Shown here: in pieces, positions 930 to 23,502 of the stretch
Layout: every line of letters starts with the position of its first letter
Numbering within the stretch: the first letter of the stretch is position 1
Source of the DNA: an uncultured Anaerolineae bacterium
GTDB taxonomy: Bacteria; Chloroflexota; Anaerolineae; CG2-30-64-16
Assembly: GCA_937124585.1 (NCBI GenBank)
Contig: CAKZKT010000018.1
Coordinates: 1 to 52,627, forward strand
Length of the DNA: 52,627 bases
Direction: 5' to 3'
The notes under the pieces: generated by a model
What the model was told of the DNA's origin: nothing
What the model saw: only the letters and a program-made list of their open reading frames with translations
Database searches by the model: none
Translations under genes and position numbers: made by a program

Positions 930-2633
930 TCATTGCCCGGTGTGGACCGTGTAGCCGAGCTCGGCCAGCGCCTTGAGCAGCTGCGGCAGGTCGTTTTCGC
1001 GCACCAGAGCCGCCTGTGTGGAGAGGAGTTCGCCCAATAGCGGCGCGACCGCCGGATCGGCCCGCAGGGCTGCCAGGATGCCGGCATCTTCGACGCGCAG
1101 TACGGCCCCACGGGTGATCGTCACTGCGCCGCTGTGCTCTTCCCAACGCGCGAGCGCTGCCGCCACGCGCGGCGGCAAGCGGTCGCCGCTGGCGCGGCGC
1201 AAGAATTCGATGATCGCCTGGCCACGCACGCCGGCCTCACGGCTGCGCGCCAGCCCGCCGCGCGTGATGCGATGGCGCGTCGGCTGGCCCAGCTCATACG
1301 GCGCCGCGATCGGCTCGGTGAAGCGCAGCAGGCGGAAACGGTCGAACAGCGGCAGCAACAGCGGTGCGGTGATGATGAAGTGTTCGTCAATGCTCAAACG
1401 CATCGGCCGCGGCAGGTGTTCGGGCAACGGCCGGCCCAGCCAGGCCGCGCCGAACGACGTCAGGCGGAAGGTTTGCAGCTGGCCTTCTGCGTCTTCGCCC
1501 AGCGTCAGCGCGCCGAGCCAGAAGAGCGGCCCGGTGAGGATGAAGCGGATCAACCGGCCCTCTACCTCGTCCCATGACTCGAAGCCGGAGAGATAGCGGC
1601 CAGTCGCGACGTCGCGCAGGTACCAGCCGGTGTACGAGCCGTCGGGCCGTTGGAAATCCGGGTCAGTCTCTTTGATCCAGGCCACGAAGTCGCCGATGCC
1701 GTACCAGTTTGCCGGTTCCAGCCGGCTCAAGGCGGCCAGGATGGCGCGACGTGCCGTCACCGGGTCGTTGCGCCAGGCGCCTTCCGCCTGCAAGGCGGGG
1801 ATGTGACGCAGGTCGTTCCAGCCGTAGGGCTGGGCCGGTCCGGCGTCGGTGCTGTCGCGCCAGGCTTCGTACAGGGCTTTCATCTGTTCCCATAGCGTCA
1901 GGCGCAGCCACGCGGTCGTCTCCTGGGTGTTCACCACCAGACGGCCGCGGTCCACGGCCAGCCAGCCCCGACTGCGCGCCAGCGATATGGCCAGGTCAAA
2001 CCGAACGGGATCGGGGAGGAGCATCCCTGCGCGGAGGGGGAGCAGATCGGCCGGTCGCGGCTGGCCGCTCCGTTCTATGCGAGGCGACAACTCGCGAACC
2101 GCTGCCAGCAGGCCGCAGATGTCCACAGCCAGGGTGTTATAGGCGTGTTTTTTGCGGGCAGGCTCTGGCTGCGGCGCCAGATTGTCGGCTACGGTCGGAA
2201 CTGCCGGCACGGTCGCCGGCAGCAACTCGGCAGGGATGTAGATGTATTCGGCCGGGCCATCGCCCAGGTCTGCGAAGCCGCGAAAGATCAGGCCTCGATA
2301 CCAGAGCTCCTCGGCCGGGCTTTGCGGCTGTCGCCAGATGGCTTCTCGCTCCAGCCGGCCAGGGCCGACGGGTCGGATGACGCCGTGTTGGCGCGTGAAG
2401 GCCGGCGTCTTCATCCGCCCACCCGCCGCTGCCAGCGCCGCCCAGGCCGCTCGTGCGGCTTCGGAGCAGGTGACCAGGGCGGCCGCGGTGGCTTCTGGCT
2501 CGGCCAGAGCTGCGGCCAGCTGGGTCGCAGCGTCATCGCGATGGTTGGTGCTCAGCGCGAGCGCGCGCAGCTCGGCGATGCCGCGCAGCATCGCCATCGA
2601 GTGGCCGCTGAGGCTGGCGAGCAAGGTTTGCAT
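930..2633 (-). CDS. Orphan helicase-associated-domain protein, paralogue of the XPB-operon proteins
   Basis: This 567-residue protein has no signal peptide or membrane segment. Its C-terminal part (about 410-565) resembles the helicase-associated domain (Pfam Helicase_C_3 type) that also forms the N-terminus of the bacterial XPB helicase in this window. Shared features include the IIEFLRRASG...LPPRV...LARWEE segment and an end reading RENDLPQLLKALAELGYTV. The middle (about 300-400) carries the Trp-rich WDEVEGRLIRFILTGPLFWLG segment, which aligns by eye with WEGVEATFIRAVLTEALYWLG in the protein at 21088-23502. There is no Walker A motif, so it is not itself a helicase. Function is unknown; a DNA-binding or helicase-partner role is inferred. 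It is a stand-alone leftward gene about 15 kb from the XPB operon. No convincing promoter was seen. Confidence 0.8.
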   Translation of the reverse strand: MQTLLASLSGHSMAMLRGIAELRALALSTNHRDDAATQLAAALAEPEATAAALVTCSEAARAAWAALAAAGGRMKTPAFTRQHGVIRPVGPGRLEREAIWRQPQSPAEELWYRGLIFRGFADLGDGPAEYIYIPAELLPATVPAVPTVADNLAPQPEPARKKHAYNTLAVDICGLLAAVRELSPRIERSGQPRPADLLPLRAGMLLPDPVRFDLAISLARSRGWLAVDRGRLVVNTQETTAWLRLTLWEQMKALYEAWRDSTDAGPAQPYGWNDLRHIPALQAEGAWRNDPVTARRAILAALSRLEPANWYGIGDFVAWIKETDPDFQRPDGSYTGWYLRDVATGRYLSGFESWDEVEGRLIRFILTGPLFWLGALTLGEDAEGQLQTFRLTSFGAAWLGRPLPEHLPRPMRLSIDEHFIITAPLLLPLFDRFRLLRFTEPIAAPYELGQPTRHRITRGGLARSREAGVRGQAIIEFLRRASGDRLPPRVAAALARWEEHSGAVTITRGAVLRVEDAGILAALRADPAVAPLLGELLSTQAALVRENDLPQLLKALAELGYTVHTGQ

Positions 2634-17468: not shown

Positions 17469-19253
17469 ATGCCGGTGAATCCGTTCAACCCGATGGTCGT
17501 TCAAAGCGACCGGACGGTGTTGCTCGAAGTTGACAATCCACTCTACAGCGAAGCGCGCGACGCACTGGCGCGCTTCGCCGAGCTCGAGAAAAGCCCCGAA
17601 CACATCCACACCTATCGGCTGTCGCCGCTCTCCCTCTGGAACGCGGCCGCCAGCGGCCTGACCGCGGAGACCATCCTCGCCTACCTGGCGCAATATAGCA
17701 AATACGATGTGCCCGGCAATATTCAGGCCGATGTGCGGGATTACATCAGCCGCTTCGGCCGGCTCAAACTGCACAAAGACTCCACCGGTGCCCTGCTTCT
17801 GACCGCTGACGACCCCCTGCTCATGCTGGAGGTCAGCCGGCAGCGCAAAGTCAAACAGTTTATCCTCGAAGAGGTAGATGCCTGCACTGTGCGGGTCAAT
17901 CCCGCCATGCGGGGCCACATCAAGAAGGCGTTGGTGGATGTCGGCTATCCGGCCGAGGATCTGGCCGGCTATGTCGAGGGCGCCGGGCTGCTCATCAAGC
18001 TGTTGCCTGCCCGCCGGACGACGGGCGAGGTGTTCCGGCTGCGCCACTATCAGACAGATGCCGTGGCCACGTTTCATGCCGATGGCTCGCCGCGCGGGGG
18101 GTCGGGCGTCATCGTGTTGCCGTGCGGCGCAGGCAAGACGATGGTCGGCATGGGCGTCATGGATCGGCTCCAGACTAACACCCTCATCATGACGACCAAT
18201 ACCGTCGCCGTTCGCCAGTGGATAGACGAGCTGCTGGACAAAACCTCGCTGGCTCCATCCGAGATCGGCGAGTATTCCGGCGACGTGAAGGAGATCCGGC
18301 CGGTCACCGTCACCACCTACCAGATCCTCACCTATCACAAACGCCAACGCGGCCGCAATAATGCCCCCGACGACCTGGGCTGGGACGATGATGGCGCACC
18401 CAAGCCGCTCTCTATCGAGGATTTTCCGCATTTTCAGCTCTTCAACGAGCGCGATTGGGGGCTGATCATCTACGACGAGGTGCACCTGCTGCCGGCGCCG
18501 GTGTTTCGCATGACGGCCGAATTGCAGGGAAAGCGACGCCTGGGCCTGACCGCTACGCTGGTGCGCGAGGATGGCCGGGAGGAAGATGTCTTCGCGCTCA
18601 TCGGCCCGAAAAAATACGACGTGCCCTGGAAAGACCTGGAGCGCCAGGGCTGGATCGCCACCGCGCACTGCCACGAAATCCGGCTGACGATGTCGCGCGA
18701 GCGGCGCATGGAATACGCCCTGGCCGACAGCAAACTCCAGTATGCCATCGCCGCCACCGATCCCGTCAAGCTCGACGTGGTCGAACAGTTGATCGCCAAA
18801 CATCCCGATGACCAAATCCTGATCATCGGCACGTACCTGGAACAACTGGAGCAGGCGGCCACACGCTTCAACGCGCCATTGCTTACCGGCAAGACGCCCG
18901 TGCGCGAGCGACAGAAGCTCTACCAGCAGATGCGTGAGGGCACGTTGCGAGTGCTCGTCGTCTCCAAGGTTGCCAACTTCGCCATAGACCTGCCCGATGT
19001 CAGCGTGGCCATCGAGATCAGCGGCACGTTCGGCTCGCGGCAGGAGGAAGCGCAACGGCTGGGCCGCATCCTGCGGCCCAAGAGCGACAACCGGCCGGCG
19101 CATTTCTACGCGCTGGTGATGCGGGATACCAAAGATCAACTTTTCGGCAGTCATCGGCAGATGTTTTTGACCGAACAGGGGTACAAATACGAAATCCTGT
19201 ACGAAGATGACATGCCGGACTTCGATCCGATGCACGACGAGGCGCACTGGTGA
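17469..19253 (+). CDS. XPB/ERCC3-type DNA helicase
   Basis: This 594-residue superfamily-2 helicase is of the bacterial XPB type. The N-terminal 200 residues are a helicase-associated domain (VVQSDRTVLLEVD, then FAELEKSPEHIHTYRLSPLS). Walker A is PCGAGKT (about 220), and the DEAH-type box is DEVH (about 336). The RED motif specific to XPB is present in VREDGREEDVFALIGPK (about 366). The C-terminal lobe has LTGKTPVRERQ and motif VI, QEEAQRLGRILRPK. XPB unwinds or translocates on DNA: in eukaryotes in transcription and repair, and in archaea with the nuclease Bax1. No Bax1-like gene was seen here. It overlaps the next gene by 4 bases (GTGA), so it is the first gene of a three-gene coupled operon. 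Confidence 0.95.
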   Translation: MPVNPFNPMVVQSDRTVLLEVDNPLYSEARDALARFAELEKSPEHIHTYRLSPLSLWNAAASGLTAETILAYLAQYSKYDVPGNIQADVRDYISRFGRLKLHKDSTGALLLTADDPLLMLEVSRQRKVKQFILEEVDACTVRVNPAMRGHIKKALVDVGYPAEDLAGYVEGAGLLIKLLPARRTTGEVFRLRHYQTDAVATFHADGSPRGGSGVIVLPCGAGKTMVGMGVMDRLQTNTLIMTTNTVAVRQWIDELLDKTSLAPSEIGEYSGDVKEIRPVTVTTYQILTYHKRQRGRNNAPDDLGWDDDGAPKPLSIEDFPHFQLFNERDWGLIIYDEVHLLPAPVFRMTAELQGKRRLGLTATLVREDGREEDVFALIGPKKYDVPWKDLERQGWIATAHCHEIRLTMSRERRMEYALADSKLQYAIAATDPVKLDVVEQLIAKHPDDQILIIGTYLEQLEQAATRFNAPLLTGKTPVRERQKLYQQMREGTLRVLVVSKVANFAIDLPDVSVAIEISGTFGSRQEEAQRLGRILRPKSDNRPAHFYALVMRDTKDQLFGSHRQMFLTEQGYKYEILYEDDMPDFDPMHDEAHW

Positions 19254-21091
19254 GTCCATCAGCCGATGCCCACGCACGGGCGGTTGCCAACCTGCGCAAT
19301 GCACTCCAGGCTGTTTCGATTCAAGGCCTGCGCAACGCGGCGCGGTTGTGGAACTGGCCGATTAAAGGCGTCGCCAAAGCCGAAATCGTTCAGCAACTGA
19401 TGGAACATCTCGGCAATACGCAAGAAATGGCGACGGCCTTTCGCGGCCTGCCGCTCACCCACCGGCAAGCGGCGATCTGGCTTGCCCATATGGGCGTAGT
19501 GGAGGAGCCAGCAGAGACATTACGCATGGTGATCGGTATTACGGAGGGTCGGGAACTGGCCAAAGCCACTATCGCGCACGCCATCACCGAATTGCGCCAG
19601 CGGCTGATCGTGCTCGAGGGGTCCTATCAAGGGATATTTGTCCCCGAAGTCTATCGGGAATGGTTGCCGTCGGCAGAGGCAGCGCAGTTGCTCTATGCCG
19701 GCCAGCCCACGCCGGGTGGCCGGCCCGAGATCGTACCGGCTTTCAACCTCGATCAGCTCAATCAACATGTCGAACAGCTGCTGACGCTGATAGAGCGTGA
19801 ACAGCCGAGCCTGCAACAAGCGCAGGCTGCGTCGGCGCCGGCGCAGCCTGCTATGCAGCCATTGGGCCAGCCGCCCGCCGGCCCGGCGTTGCAATCGCAT
19901 GCCGGCATCGTATCGAGCAGCCTTCTGGCCCAATGGGGATATGTCAGCCTGGAAGAACAGAACCTGGCACGGACTTTGCTTAGCATCACGCTGATAGGCG
20001 GCCTGTGCCGCGTGCAGGAAAACAACAATCGTCTCGTGCTCGACGCCAAAACAATGAGCGCCTGGCGCGAACTGTCTCCCGCAGCGCGACGCGAACATCT
20101 GGTTGGATGGTGGGCATCGCCCATGCCGGGCAGCGGGACGGGCAGCATCATGATCACGGTCCCTTTGTCGCATAAAAGCTGGGATGAGCTCGATCTCGTC
20201 CTGACTGCCCGGCCCAGGTACACGTTGCGGCCACGGGTGAGCTGGGTAGGCCGCGAGAGTCTCGACCTCCAGCTCAGATATATGCGCGCCTGGCTTCTTA
20301 ACCTGATCTCGGCATTGCGTCCGGATGTCTGGTACGACTATGGGCGCTTCCTCGACCTCATTTTCAGCATCCGGCGGGACCTTTTTCTTTCGACGACTCA
20401 TCAGATCGGCTGGAGCTGGTATGCCGACAGCACTCGTCTGGAAGCGTCGCAGATGCTGCGCTCGCAATGGGAAGAGACCTACGGCCTCCTGGTCGTTGCT
20501 TGGCTGACCGGCCCGGCCACCTGGTTGGGCCTCGTGCAGACAGCCATCCAGGATGACCGGGTGGTCGCGTTCATGCGGCCCGGTGCCGCCGCGAGTCCGG
20601 CGGCCGCGCCGCTTCACAAAGACGCTCTGCGTTTCCTGCCCGATGGCCGACTGATCCTCCGCAACACGTGGCAGACCGGCGACCTGCGCAAGCTTGTCGG
20701 CAAGATCGCCGTCGAAACAGCGCGCGATCGAGAGACGACGACCTATGTGCTCTCAACCGAAGCGTTCCGGAAGACGCTGTTGGCAGGTCAGAGCGCCGAG
20801 CAGGTGATCGGTGAGTTCGTCGGCGCCGAGTTCGCGTTGCCGGACGCACATGCCGACCGGCTGCGAGAGTGGCAGGGGCGGCTTGGCCGCTATCAGCTCT
20901 ACGATAACCTCGGCGTCATCGAATTCAGCGACGATGAGACGCTGGCTGAAATCCAGGCCATGATCGGCTGGGGCCGCAACGACCTCTATCCGATCTCCCC
21001 GCGGTGTCTGGTCGTGCTTCGGCCCGATGCCATTCCGGATCTGGTGGAAGAGCTGCGTCGTAAAGGCTACACACCACAGGTGAAGCTATGA
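19250..21091 (+). CDS. Helicase-associated protein 1 of the XPB operon
   Basis: This 613-residue soluble protein starts at a GTG overlapping the XPB stop. It has an N-terminal helical region (about 1-130), a Gln/Ala/Pro-rich linker (about 185-220) and a winged-helix-rich middle. Its C-terminal domain (about 460-610; LRFLPDGRLILRNTWQTGDL, then VETARDRETTTYVLSTEAF) is built like the helicase-associated domain at the N-terminus of XPB. It ends in RPDAIPDLVEELRRKGYTPQ. There is no ATPase motif. I infer a non-catalytic partner of XPB, for DNA binding or complex assembly. In mycobacteria, ercc3 (Rv0861c) also neighbours a helicase-associated-domain gene, from memory. Exact function is unknown. Confidence 0.82.
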   Translation: MSPSADAHARAVANLRNALQAVSIQGLRNAARLWNWPIKGVAKAEIVQQLMEHLGNTQEMATAFRGLPLTHRQAAIWLAHMGVVEEPAETLRMVIGITEGRELAKATIAHAITELRQRLIVLEGSYQGIFVPEVYREWLPSAEAAQLLYAGQPTPGGRPEIVPAFNLDQLNQHVEQLLTLIEREQPSLQQAQAASAPAQPAMQPLGQPPAGPALQSHAGIVSSSLLAQWGYVSLEEQNLARTLLSITLIGGLCRVQENNNRLVLDAKTMSAWRELSPAARREHLVGWWASPMPGSGTGSIMITVPLSHKSWDELDLVLTARPRYTLRPRVSWVGRESLDLQLRYMRAWLLNLISALRPDVWYDYGRFLDLIFSIRRDLFLSTTHQIGWSWYADSTRLEASQMLRSQWEETYGLLVVAWLTGPATWLGLVQTAIQDDRVVAFMRPGAAASPAAAPLHKDALRFLPDGRLILRNTWQTGDLRKLVGKIAVETARDRETTTYVLSTEAFRKTLLAGQSAEQVIGEFVGAEFALPDAHADRLREWQGRLGRYQLYDNLGVIEFSDDETLAEIQAMIGWGRNDLYPISPRCLVVLRPDAIPDLVEELRRKGYTPQVKL

Positions 21092-23502
21092 CGCCTCCAC
21101 CGTTACGGAACGCGATTGATGCCTTTCGCGCCAATGATGTCGCCACGATCCTGCGCACGGCCGGCGTGGGAGAGATGCCCAAAACCAAAGAAGGCAAGGC
21201 CGAGCTGTGGCTCAAGCTGATCGGCGAGCCCGCCCGCATCCGCACCGCGTTGAGCCGGGTCAATGCGCGTTGCCGGAAAGCGCTCGAGATCTTGCAGCTG
21301 GCAGGCGGTGAGCTGCGCACGGCGCGATTTCGCAGCCTGCTGGAACGCAACGGCATCTTGAAGGAACCGTCGAAAACACGGCGGGCGGTCTACGGCTATT
21401 ACGACCGGCGCCCTGAACTGGTGGCCGATCCCGCCTCCTTCGAAGAAGTGCTGGCCACACTGCTCAAGCATGGTCTGATCTGGACCCATACCCTGCCCGC
21501 CCAAGCGTCGGGCAATGCCAAGCTGGGATTTGAGGGCGGCCGGTTTGTCTACATTCCTGCCGAGGTGGCGCGGCACTTGCCGCTGCCGGTCGCGCCGCCG
21601 AGAGCGCAGATAGAGATCACCCATGTGCTTGCCGGCTCGGCCCGTACCTGCCAGCGCGATCTCTATCTCCTGTGGAGCGCCGCTCGCGAGGCGCCTCTGC
21701 AACTGACGAACAACGGCCTCCTGCGCGTCGCTGACCTGAAACGCATCTGCCCGCAGTTCCTCATTCCGGAGACGTTCGCCTCGGGCAGCAAAGAGAGCGA
21801 TTTTCGCCGCGTCTTTTTCTTGCGTCGCCTGTTGATGGCCCTGGGCCAGCTGAGCCCCGGCGCAGGAGACGGGGCCGCCGCGCCGGACCGTAATACCCTG
21901 GTCGCTGCGTCGGATGTCAGTTTCTGGCAGACGGAGGCAACGCAGCGCGTGCAGCTCTGTTTTCAAAGCTGGCGAGATGGTGCCTGGTGGAATGAACTGT
22001 GGGCCACCTACGAACAGGGTGCAACACGCGCCAGCGGCAGCCCGGCCGATTTCGCCGCGACGAGGGTCGTCCATGCACGACGCAAAGTGCTCGACGTGCT
22101 GACGTCCATGGTACAGCGTGAGATGGCTTCGGGCACGGACGCAGCGCAAACCTGGATCTCCTGCGATGCCATCTCCGACTATCTGCATAATCATGATGAA
22201 GAGTTCCTCGTAGATCGGGAAACCGCGGAGCAGAGCTACACCGGCTATTACTACGCATCTTCCCGGTCGGTCAGCTCGCCCTATCAGTACAATACGTTGG
22301 GCTGGACCTGGGAGAGATATCTCAACGACCCAGAGGGCGGTTGGGAAGGCGTCGAAGCGACCTTCATCCGCGCCGTGCTGACCGAAGCGCTCTACTGGCT
22401 GGGCCTGGTGGATCTGGGCTACATCAAGCCTGTGACTCCGGCCGGCGGCAGCGCGCCGGAGGGGTTGCAAGCCGTCCGCCTGACCGACATGGGGCGATGG
22501 CTCCTGCTCGACACGGAGCCGCCCGCCATCCCGGTCGAAACCGGTCGGGTGATCGTGCAACCGAATTTCCACATCTTCGCGTTCGATCCGATCTCCGATG
22601 CGGTGTTGGCCCGGCTCGACAGCTTCGCCACGCGCCTCAAAGCTGAACGGGCCGTGGAGTACGAGTTGACGAGCGATTCCCTCTACCGGGCCCAGCAGGC
22701 CGGTCAGCAGGTCGAGGAGATCATGCAGTGGCTGGAAGCGACGACCGGCGCGGCGCTGCCGCAAAACGTCGCGCGCAGTATGCTGGAATGGAAGGCCGCC
22801 TTCGAGCGTATCGTGATTCGCCCGCGCGTGGGTTGCCTGCAGACGGCCACTCCTGAAATGGCAGATGCGCTGCTGGCCGATCCCGCACTGCGCGGCGCGA
22901 TTATCCGGCGCGTTGGCCCGACCATACTGTTGTTGCGCGCCGACGCCGTCAAGATGGTTGAACACGCCCTGTTGGCGGCTGAGGAACTGCCGGTGTGCAC
23001 CAATCGGTCAGAAGATAGCCTTCGGGCCAGCATTCGAGTGACTGCCGACGGCACGATCCATTTCGTCCACAGCGTGCCGAGCCTGCATGTCTATAGCCAT
23101 CTGCGGCCGTTTGCCGACGCGACGACACCTGGGGGCGATCCGGCGACAGCGTGGCGTATCACGGCAGAAAGCGTGCGCCGCGCATGCGCTGCCGGTGTGA
23201 GCGCGCCGACCATCATCGCCGGCCTGGCGAAGCTCGCCCTCGACGGCGTGCCCTCCGAATTGCAGGTCCGGATCAAGGCATGGAGCAAATATTACGGGGA
23301 TGCCTTCGTCCAGACACTCACCCTGATCCAGTTTCGCGATCAGGGGATTCTCGAGGAGTTGTGCGCCGATGCCGCCCTCGCGCCCCACCTTCGTCCTTTC
23401 AAGCCCGAGGCCAAACTCGGCCTGGCAGTGGTCCAACCCGGCGATGTGGCCGTTTTGCAGGCGTTGTTGGCCGAACGGGGCATTGATCTGGCACAGCGTT
23501 GA
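21088..23502 (+). CDS. Helicase-associated protein 2 of the XPB operon
   Basis: This 804-residue soluble protein starts in an ATGA overlap with the preceding gene. A likely winged-helix region (about 1-170; IRTALSRVNARCRKALEILQ) leads into a Trp/Tyr-rich middle (about 260-450). The helicase-associated domain follows (about 480-640; GRVIVQPNFHIFAFDPISD, YELTSDSLYRAQQAGQQVEE, LPQNVARSMLEWKAAFERI), closely patterned on the XPB N-terminal domain. A further module of about 130 residues ends the protein. There is no nuclease or ATPase motif that I can see. It resembles the orphan paralogue at 930-2633 across the whole second half. Role inferred: partner of XPB in an uncharacterised DNA-processing or repair complex. 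Confidence 0.82.
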   Translation: MTPPPLRNAIDAFRANDVATILRTAGVGEMPKTKEGKAELWLKLIGEPARIRTALSRVNARCRKALEILQLAGGELRTARFRSLLERNGILKEPSKTRRAVYGYYDRRPELVADPASFEEVLATLLKHGLIWTHTLPAQASGNAKLGFEGGRFVYIPAEVARHLPLPVAPPRAQIEITHVLAGSARTCQRDLYLLWSAAREAPLQLTNNGLLRVADLKRICPQFLIPETFASGSKESDFRRVFFLRRLLMALGQLSPGAGDGAAAPDRNTLVAASDVSFWQTEATQRVQLCFQSWRDGAWWNELWATYEQGATRASGSPADFAATRVVHARRKVLDVLTSMVQREMASGTDAAQTWISCDAISDYLHNHDEEFLVDRETAEQSYTGYYYASSRSVSSPYQYNTLGWTWERYLNDPEGGWEGVEATFIRAVLTEALYWLGLVDLGYIKPVTPAGGSAPEGLQAVRLTDMGRWLLLDTEPPAIPVETGRVIVQPNFHIFAFDPISDAVLARLDSFATRLKAERAVEYELTSDSLYRAQQAGQQVEEIMQWLEATTGAALPQNVARSMLEWKAAFERIVIRPRVGCLQTATPEMADALLADPALRGAIIRRVGPTILLLRADAVKMVEHALLAAEELPVCTNRSEDSLRASIRVTADGTIHFVHSVPSLHVYSHLRPFADATTPGGDPATAWRITAESVRRACAAGVSAPTIIAGLAKLALDGVPSELQVRIKAWSKYYGDAFVQTLTLIQFRDQGILEELCADAALAPHLRPFKPEAKLGLAVVQPGDVAVLQALLAERGIDLAQR

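Follow-up and report, generated by a model that had tools for sequence, protein, structure and literature searches.

In TFIIH, the human complex for repair and transcription, the subunit p52 holds and regulates the DNA motor XPB. The clutch of p52 (residues 306-399) and the N-terminal domain (NTD) of XPB are homologous and pair as a pseudo-symmetric dimer, through which XPB is recruited (PMC6422496). The XPB ATPase is stimulated additively by p52 and p8 (PMC9557730), and p52 is sufficient to enable it (PMC7708078). Archaeal XPB also has a dedicated partner, the nuclease Bax1 (PMC7293015). In Bacteria (e.g. Paenibacillus, Deinococcus and Actinomycetota), XPB goes together, often as an adjacent gene, with one PF13625 protein that NCBI names 'helicase-associated domain-containing protein', so that the family already exists in annotation. 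Studied in vitro, Mycobacterium tuberculosis XPB has an inefficient ATPase and is needed in molar excess over DNA (PMC3353954). According to a published study, p52 is not found in bacteria. Here we analyse an operon at positions 17469-23502 of a 52,627-nucleotide stretch of DNA, hereafter the window (forward strand of contig CAKZKT010000018.1, assembly GCA_937124585.1), from an uncultured Anaerolineae bacterium of the Chloroflexota. Its three genes encode XPB and two large partners, called P2 and P3, and probably specify a double-stranded DNA (dsDNA) translocase, the bacterial equivalent of XPB-p52 in TFIIH.

The likeness to p52 comes from predicted structures. AlphaFold2 models of P2 (pLDDT 75, moderate) and P3 (pLDDT 85.7) were each searched separately against the PDB with Foldseek, and for both the closest overall predicted fold among solved structures was p52/Tfb2. 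For P2, the first 18 matches are all p52/Tfb2 (best E 3.6e-9) and XPB then follows at 1.6e-3; for P3, p52 takes the first 10 places (best E 3.9e-8) and XPB begins at 4.8e-6. Since p52 ranks ahead of XPB for both models, the likeness extends past the common clutch. Both models do contain a clutch with the fold of the XPB NTD: in VIA superpositions, P2 residues 453-547 lie on the human XPB NTD with Z 12.1 (root-mean-square deviation (rmsd) 2.7 Å, 95 residues aligned) and the first P3 clutch lies on the XPB NTD with Z 14.0 (1.8 Å, 91 aligned). Over a longer span, P3 residues 172-633 superpose on p52 residues 135-460 (8bvw_3) with Z 13.2, an rmsd of 7.1 Å and 296 residues aligned. Alignments of p52 to the partner models run up to p52 residue 458-460 and, in the C-terminal part of P2, p52 residues 303-458 align on model residues 456-605. 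Two further matches are modest, namely that of the P2 C-terminal part to the Tfb2 C-terminal domain (3dom_A; TMt 0.58 but E 2.2) and that of P3 residues ~575-633 to Tfb5 (3dom_B; Z 6.3, rmsd 2.3 Å, 56/58 residues aligned). At the profile level, a P3 search of 177,635 PDB sequences retrieved yeast Tfb2 residues 336-405 at the P3 clutch (E 0.003) as well as the human XPB NTD, and Pfam Tfb2 is matched by 19/34 P3 family members (best E 4e-7). Judged from these models, P2 and P3 are structural homologues of p52, a likeness that is one of architecture. The preliminary description, which had treated the partners as helicase-associated proteins, stands as far as the domain is concerned; the predicted folds are nearer to TFIIH p52/Tfb2 than to XPB.

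Sequence comparison ties the three proteins to one another. The preliminary description had seen by eye a helicase-associated domain common to the XPB N-terminus and both partners, and profile-profile comparison (hhalign) gives a significant match in each case: P2 aligns onto XPB residues 2-162 (E 2.3e-12) and P3 onto XPB residues 2-183 (E 9.1e-16). The XPB stretch in question comprises the NTD and part of what we take, from family knowledge, to be the damage-recognition domain (DRD). P3 contains PF13625 (Pfam cut-off 34.2 bits) twice, for a total of 116 bits, and the domain is matched by 29/30 P2 and 34/34 P3 family members; P2 of the window taken alone reaches 24 bits, below the cut-off. Between themselves, P2 and P3 align with E 6.8e-50 over 549 columns and, on sequence evidence, are ancient full-length paralogues. 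SAP occurs in 8/30 P2 family members, and the P2 profile matches the Ku70 SAP (1jjr, E 2.5e-4). Longer P2 relatives have an N-terminal SWIM zinc finger together with a SAP-like motif; P2 of the window is without the SWIM part. A tree built on the shared region has one clade of P2 (support 100), another of P3 (90) and a third of XPB-independent proteins (99). Branching is similar in the P2 and P3 clades, and P2-P3 distances are correlated with r 0.92, or 0.81 after removing those of XPB (XPB-P2 0.83, XPB-P3 0.74).

Several points weigh against taking P2 and P3 for p52 counterparts in a TFIIH-like module. At Z 8.3 and 8.9, the p52 N-terminal half (6tru) does not stand out from unrelated winged-helix rows; the strongest case for homology is therefore the middle, clutch and C-terminal part. 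The Pfam Tfb2 family (PF03849) has a cut-off of 34.5 bits, whereas P3 scores 16.2 bits and P2 has no match; we therefore class both as structural homologues of p52/Tfb2 and not as formal members. Measured globally, TM-scores against p52 are low at 0.2-0.35, and some superpositions have an rmsd above 20 Å, because the partner chains are multidomain and flexible, and confidence in the P2 model is moderate. TFIIH offers no precedent for two p52-like chains to one XPB, and only XPB itself ties the operon to repair. Distance correlation also reflects the species history in common, so a stable P2-P3 pair is supported, not proven. Some of these observations fit a narrower explanation, that the partners have only the clutch in common with TFIIH: they would be lineage-specific DNA-binding adaptors that dock on XPB by a borrowed XPB N-terminal unit, and their remaining p52 likeness would be generic winged-helix. 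The N-terminal-half matches near background in VIA, the position of the Pfam Tfb2 matches (mainly in the clutch region and below cut-off) and a shared unit that covers the XPB NTD and DRD would all be expected from it. We nevertheless regard it as unlikely, given that p52 comes well ahead of XPB in the Foldseek rankings of both models and that P3 172-633 falls on p52 135-460 as one body (Z 13.2), with middle and C-terminal domains included.

The motor belongs, over its full length, to the bacterial XPB family NF045503 (840.8 bits against a curated cut-off of 610 bits), and GAGKT, DEVH and RED (Table 1) are intact together with motif VI, QRLGRILR (residue 529). As had been described, XPB keeps its ATPase and RED motifs and the partners have none, neither a Walker A nor a DExH/D motif being present in the P2 or P3 sequences. 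The 4-base overlap at each junction was likewise read in the sequence (GTGA at 19250-19253 between XPB and P2, ATGA at 21088-21091 between P2 and P3); a promoter and terminator scan was uninformative.

Table 1. Genes, domains and motifs of the operon (window coordinates)
Feature	Position	Strand	Description	Basis
XPB	17469..19253	+	Bacterial-type superfamily 2 (SF2) translocase, 594 aa, ATG start	NF045503 score and catalytic motifs
XPB N-terminal domain	17496..17876	+	Putative clutch partner domain	PF13625, 130.3 bits
XPB Walker A	18126..18140	+	GAGKT, residues 220-224	
XPB DEVH motif	18474..18485	+	Residues 336-339	
XPB RED motif	18564..18572	+	Residues 366-368	
P2	19250..21091	+	First p52-like partner, 613 aa, GTG start	Foldseek top hits
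P2 SAP-like helix-extension-helix	19280..19429	+	Approximate bounds	SAP in family members; profile match to Ku70 SAP
P2 clutch domain	20606..20890	+	Residues 453-547	VIA superposition on human XPB NTD
P2 C-terminal domain	20906..21064	+	Resembles p52/Tfb2 C-terminal domain	p52 alignment on model; 3dom_A
P3	21088..23502	+	Second p52-like partner, 804 aa, ATG start	Foldseek; Pfam Tfb2 matches in family
P3 first clutch domain	22537..22809	+	Residues 484-574, with VQPNF and LTxxS motifs	VIA against XPB NTD; Tfb2 profile match
P3 Tfb5-like domain	22810..22986	+	Residues 575-633, resembles Tfb5/p8 and p52 C-terminal domain	3dom_B superposition
P3 second clutch domain	23038..23385	+	PF13625 copy 2	58.4 bits; human XPB NTD matched there by profile

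Set beside XPB-p52(-p8) of TFIIH (PMC6422496), the operon has a similar layout: an XPB with an N-terminal clutch, and a partner in which putative winged-helix-like parts are followed by a homologous clutch and then a putative C-terminal p8-type domain. It differs in having two p52-like chains instead of one, a second clutch in P3, and SAP and SWIM modules; moreover, the TFIIH partners p34, p44, p62 and XPD are not seen beside the operon genes. A separate p8 gene (Tfb5/p8, PF06331) had no match over the cut-off in 18 genomes.

By analogy with TFIIH, we infer that the three proteins form a complex in which clutch pairing engages XPB, its ATPase is stimulated and the whole serves in repair. XPB would act as an ATP-driven dsDNA translocase, and P2 and P3 would be laid out as p52 is, starting with a SAP-like/winged-helix part and running through middle domains and a clutch with the XPB-NTD fold to a C-terminal domain of p52 or p8 type. 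The partner clutch would pair with the XPB NTD, and the partner C-terminal domain would rest on RecA2. Weak activity, as in M. tuberculosis XPB, is what one expects of a motor without its activator; together with the TFIIH precedent, this suggests that P2 and/or P3 may clamp and activate XPB, that is, their binding would raise a weak ATPase and keep XPB on DNA. The SAP and winged-helix modules, as well as SWIM in those relatives that have it, would bind DNA or other proteins. Because P2 has one clutch and P3 has two, we propose P2 as the main XPB clamp and P3 as a scaffold joining P2, which is a guess, and the Tfb5-like domain of P3 is perhaps in the role of p8. If this is true, p52-like operon partners would explain the weak activity of purified bacterial XPB and offer a testable activator.

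How general is the arrangement? A P3 alignment scan of 84,980 species genomes gave 56 loci. The order XPB-P2-P3 occurs in 19 of these and other XPB-linked orders in 16 more: P2-P3-XPB (5), XPB-P3like-P2-P3 (2) and XPB-P3like (8 loci and L138, where XPB lies in an overlapping frame, hence 9). Within a separate sample of 151 Chloroflexota, XPB-P2-P3 is present in G000 (the genome of the window), G062, G035, G128, G037 and G026, and one partner adjoins XPB in G065, G129, G091 and G080. Conserved synteny in related genomes, on which the preliminary description had staked its reading, is thus present. Spacing is tight, at most 20 bp from P2 to P3 in 33/37 pairs and from XPB to P2 in 17/19. At L094 and L103, ~2 kb separate XPB from P3, and P2 may there be broken by frameshifts. 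The P2-P3 pair recurs across Chloroflexota, and genomes whose P3 locus shows no XPB usually have one elsewhere: 17/20 do so, against 23/151 sampled Chloroflexota (Fisher p <1e-7; the 23 are 19 over cut-off and four cut, split or lower-scoring), or 14/17 when only Chloroflexota are compared (Fisher p 3e-8).

One motor with two partners had been proposed as a fixed set, and this did not hold; the set is recurrent instead. In Ktedonobacterales the P2-P3 pair has no XPB nearby and XPB is elsewhere in the genome, five loci have the order P2-P3-XPB, and two have a third p52-like gene. The scan also found one-partner loci in Planctomycetota and Bacillota, and outside Chloroflexota one partner lies beside or near XPB in Paenibacillus, Deinococcus, Gloeocapsopsis, Arthrobacter, Actinomyces and Tsukamurella, so that Deinococcota, Cyanobacteriota and Actinomycetota are represented as well. 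Unlike the operon, these bacterial systems have one partner only, which the shared-region tree places closer to P3 than to P2; this makes P2 an extra Chloroflexota element. The third p52-like gene, between XPB and P2 in two Anaerolineae (L095:4178-6007 and L112:1843-3690), clusters at support 100 with the partner of an XPB from a cyanobacterial plasmid (L141). Two candidate extensions were rejected: large genes 3' of XPB at L054, considered as a diverged P2/P3 pair, are HEAT-repeat and AAA proteins, and a 614-aa gene preceding P2 at L072, considered as XPB, is a glycoside-hydrolase-like protein.

For the cellular role, repair is favoured over transcription or defence because of XPB and the DNA-binding modules, and the most likely use would be the opening or remodelling of DNA that is damaged or transcription-blocked. 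A role in transcription proper would have XPB and its partners work on stalled or initiating RNA polymerase, as TFIIH does at promoters or Mfd at stalled polymerase. The TFIIH analogy speaks for it, as does the rifampin hypersusceptibility of M. tuberculosis ercC3 (XPB) mutants (PMC10534295); however, as the same paper discusses, the rifampin effect is absent from another screen. No polymerase-linked gene is found in the neighbourhoods seen, and a patchy distribution (23/151 Chloroflexota) speaks against a general transcription factor. On balance we judge this role unlikely, but a serious rival to repair. Patchiness would also suit a system of antiphage or mobile-element defence, one of the roles first suggested, and a SWIM-bearing P2 relative has weak PADLOC matches to the PDC-S62 and DpdE models. 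Against this, the neighbours in the window are housekeeping-type genes, and P2 and P3 co-diverge with XPB, with no shuffling. PADLOC gave no match for P2 or P3 of the window and only partial generic helicase matches for XPB, and searches of phage records and viral contigs found no P2 or P3 relatives. Defence accordingly has little support and is very improbable.

The archaeal XPB-Bax1 helicase-nuclease is another point of comparison. As described beforehand, the operon comes without a Bax1-like nuclease: Bax1/DUF790 (PF05626) is not found anywhere in its own genome, which is 99.8% complete. In loci of Planctomycetota and archaea, genes of ~500 aa 3' of the P3-like gene, considered as Bax1-type nucleases, were rejected as amine oxidases, radical-SAM or TPR proteins. 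Separate XPB-like helicases do lie beside Bax1/DUF790 genes in G084 (C22:29227-32860 and C66:7635-9908), not beside the XPB studied here; since XPB and a P2-P3 pair not linked to it are encoded in G084 as well, the XPB-Bax1 and P2-P3 systems coexist.

More tentatively, Bacteria, and above all Chloroflexota, may possess a TFIIH-like core composed of XPB and a heterodimer of two p52-type subunits, with a P3 domain as p8. The NTD-DRD unit of XPB and the clutch and C-terminal unit of p52 would then derive from one duplicated pre-eukaryotic module, and the p52-XPB part of TFIIH would have prokaryotic roots. If so, the origin of TFIIH could be traced with these proteins as its prokaryotic relatives. 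The searched literature, which covers few subscription journals, contains no report of p52 in bacteria, and within searchable papers both the recognition of the partners as p52-like and the operon with two of them appear to be new. Single-partner versions occur in growable species of Deinococcota, Actinomycetota and Bacillota, which brings the question within reach of laboratory test.

Related proteins were seen outside the operon. In the window itself, 15 kb from the operon, positions 930-2633 (-) encode a 567-aa protein that is laid out like p52 and has a single PF13625 domain (40 bits). This is an XPB-independent clutch protein: it shares overall layout and clutch domain with P2 and P3, whereas its family forms the separate clade noted above (support 99) and occurs in six sampled genomes without XPB over the cut-off. 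A further PF13625 protein of the same genome (L078; G000:C115:10286-12079 (-), 597 aa, 29 bits, sub-cut-off) lies at a contig end. Three Methanosarcinales archaea (L131, L132 and L139) have a p52-like protein and, elsewhere in the genome, XPB, which is bacterial-type over the cut-off in 2/3. The L132 protein has a WYL domain at its C-terminal end, and 116 of its residues match Pfam Tfb2 (E 0.0018); WYL is also present in L068, L070 and L130. A diverged XPB in G142 (L066:8067-9878 (-)) scores 543 bits, below the cut-off, and overlaps a 223-aa gene by 4 bases. Lastly, on a mobilizable plasmid of Corynebacterium diphtheriae (L149, 4486-6066), a truncated XPB-like gene lies in a region with insertion sequences and erm(X); its annotation reads 'helicase-associated domain-containing protein'.

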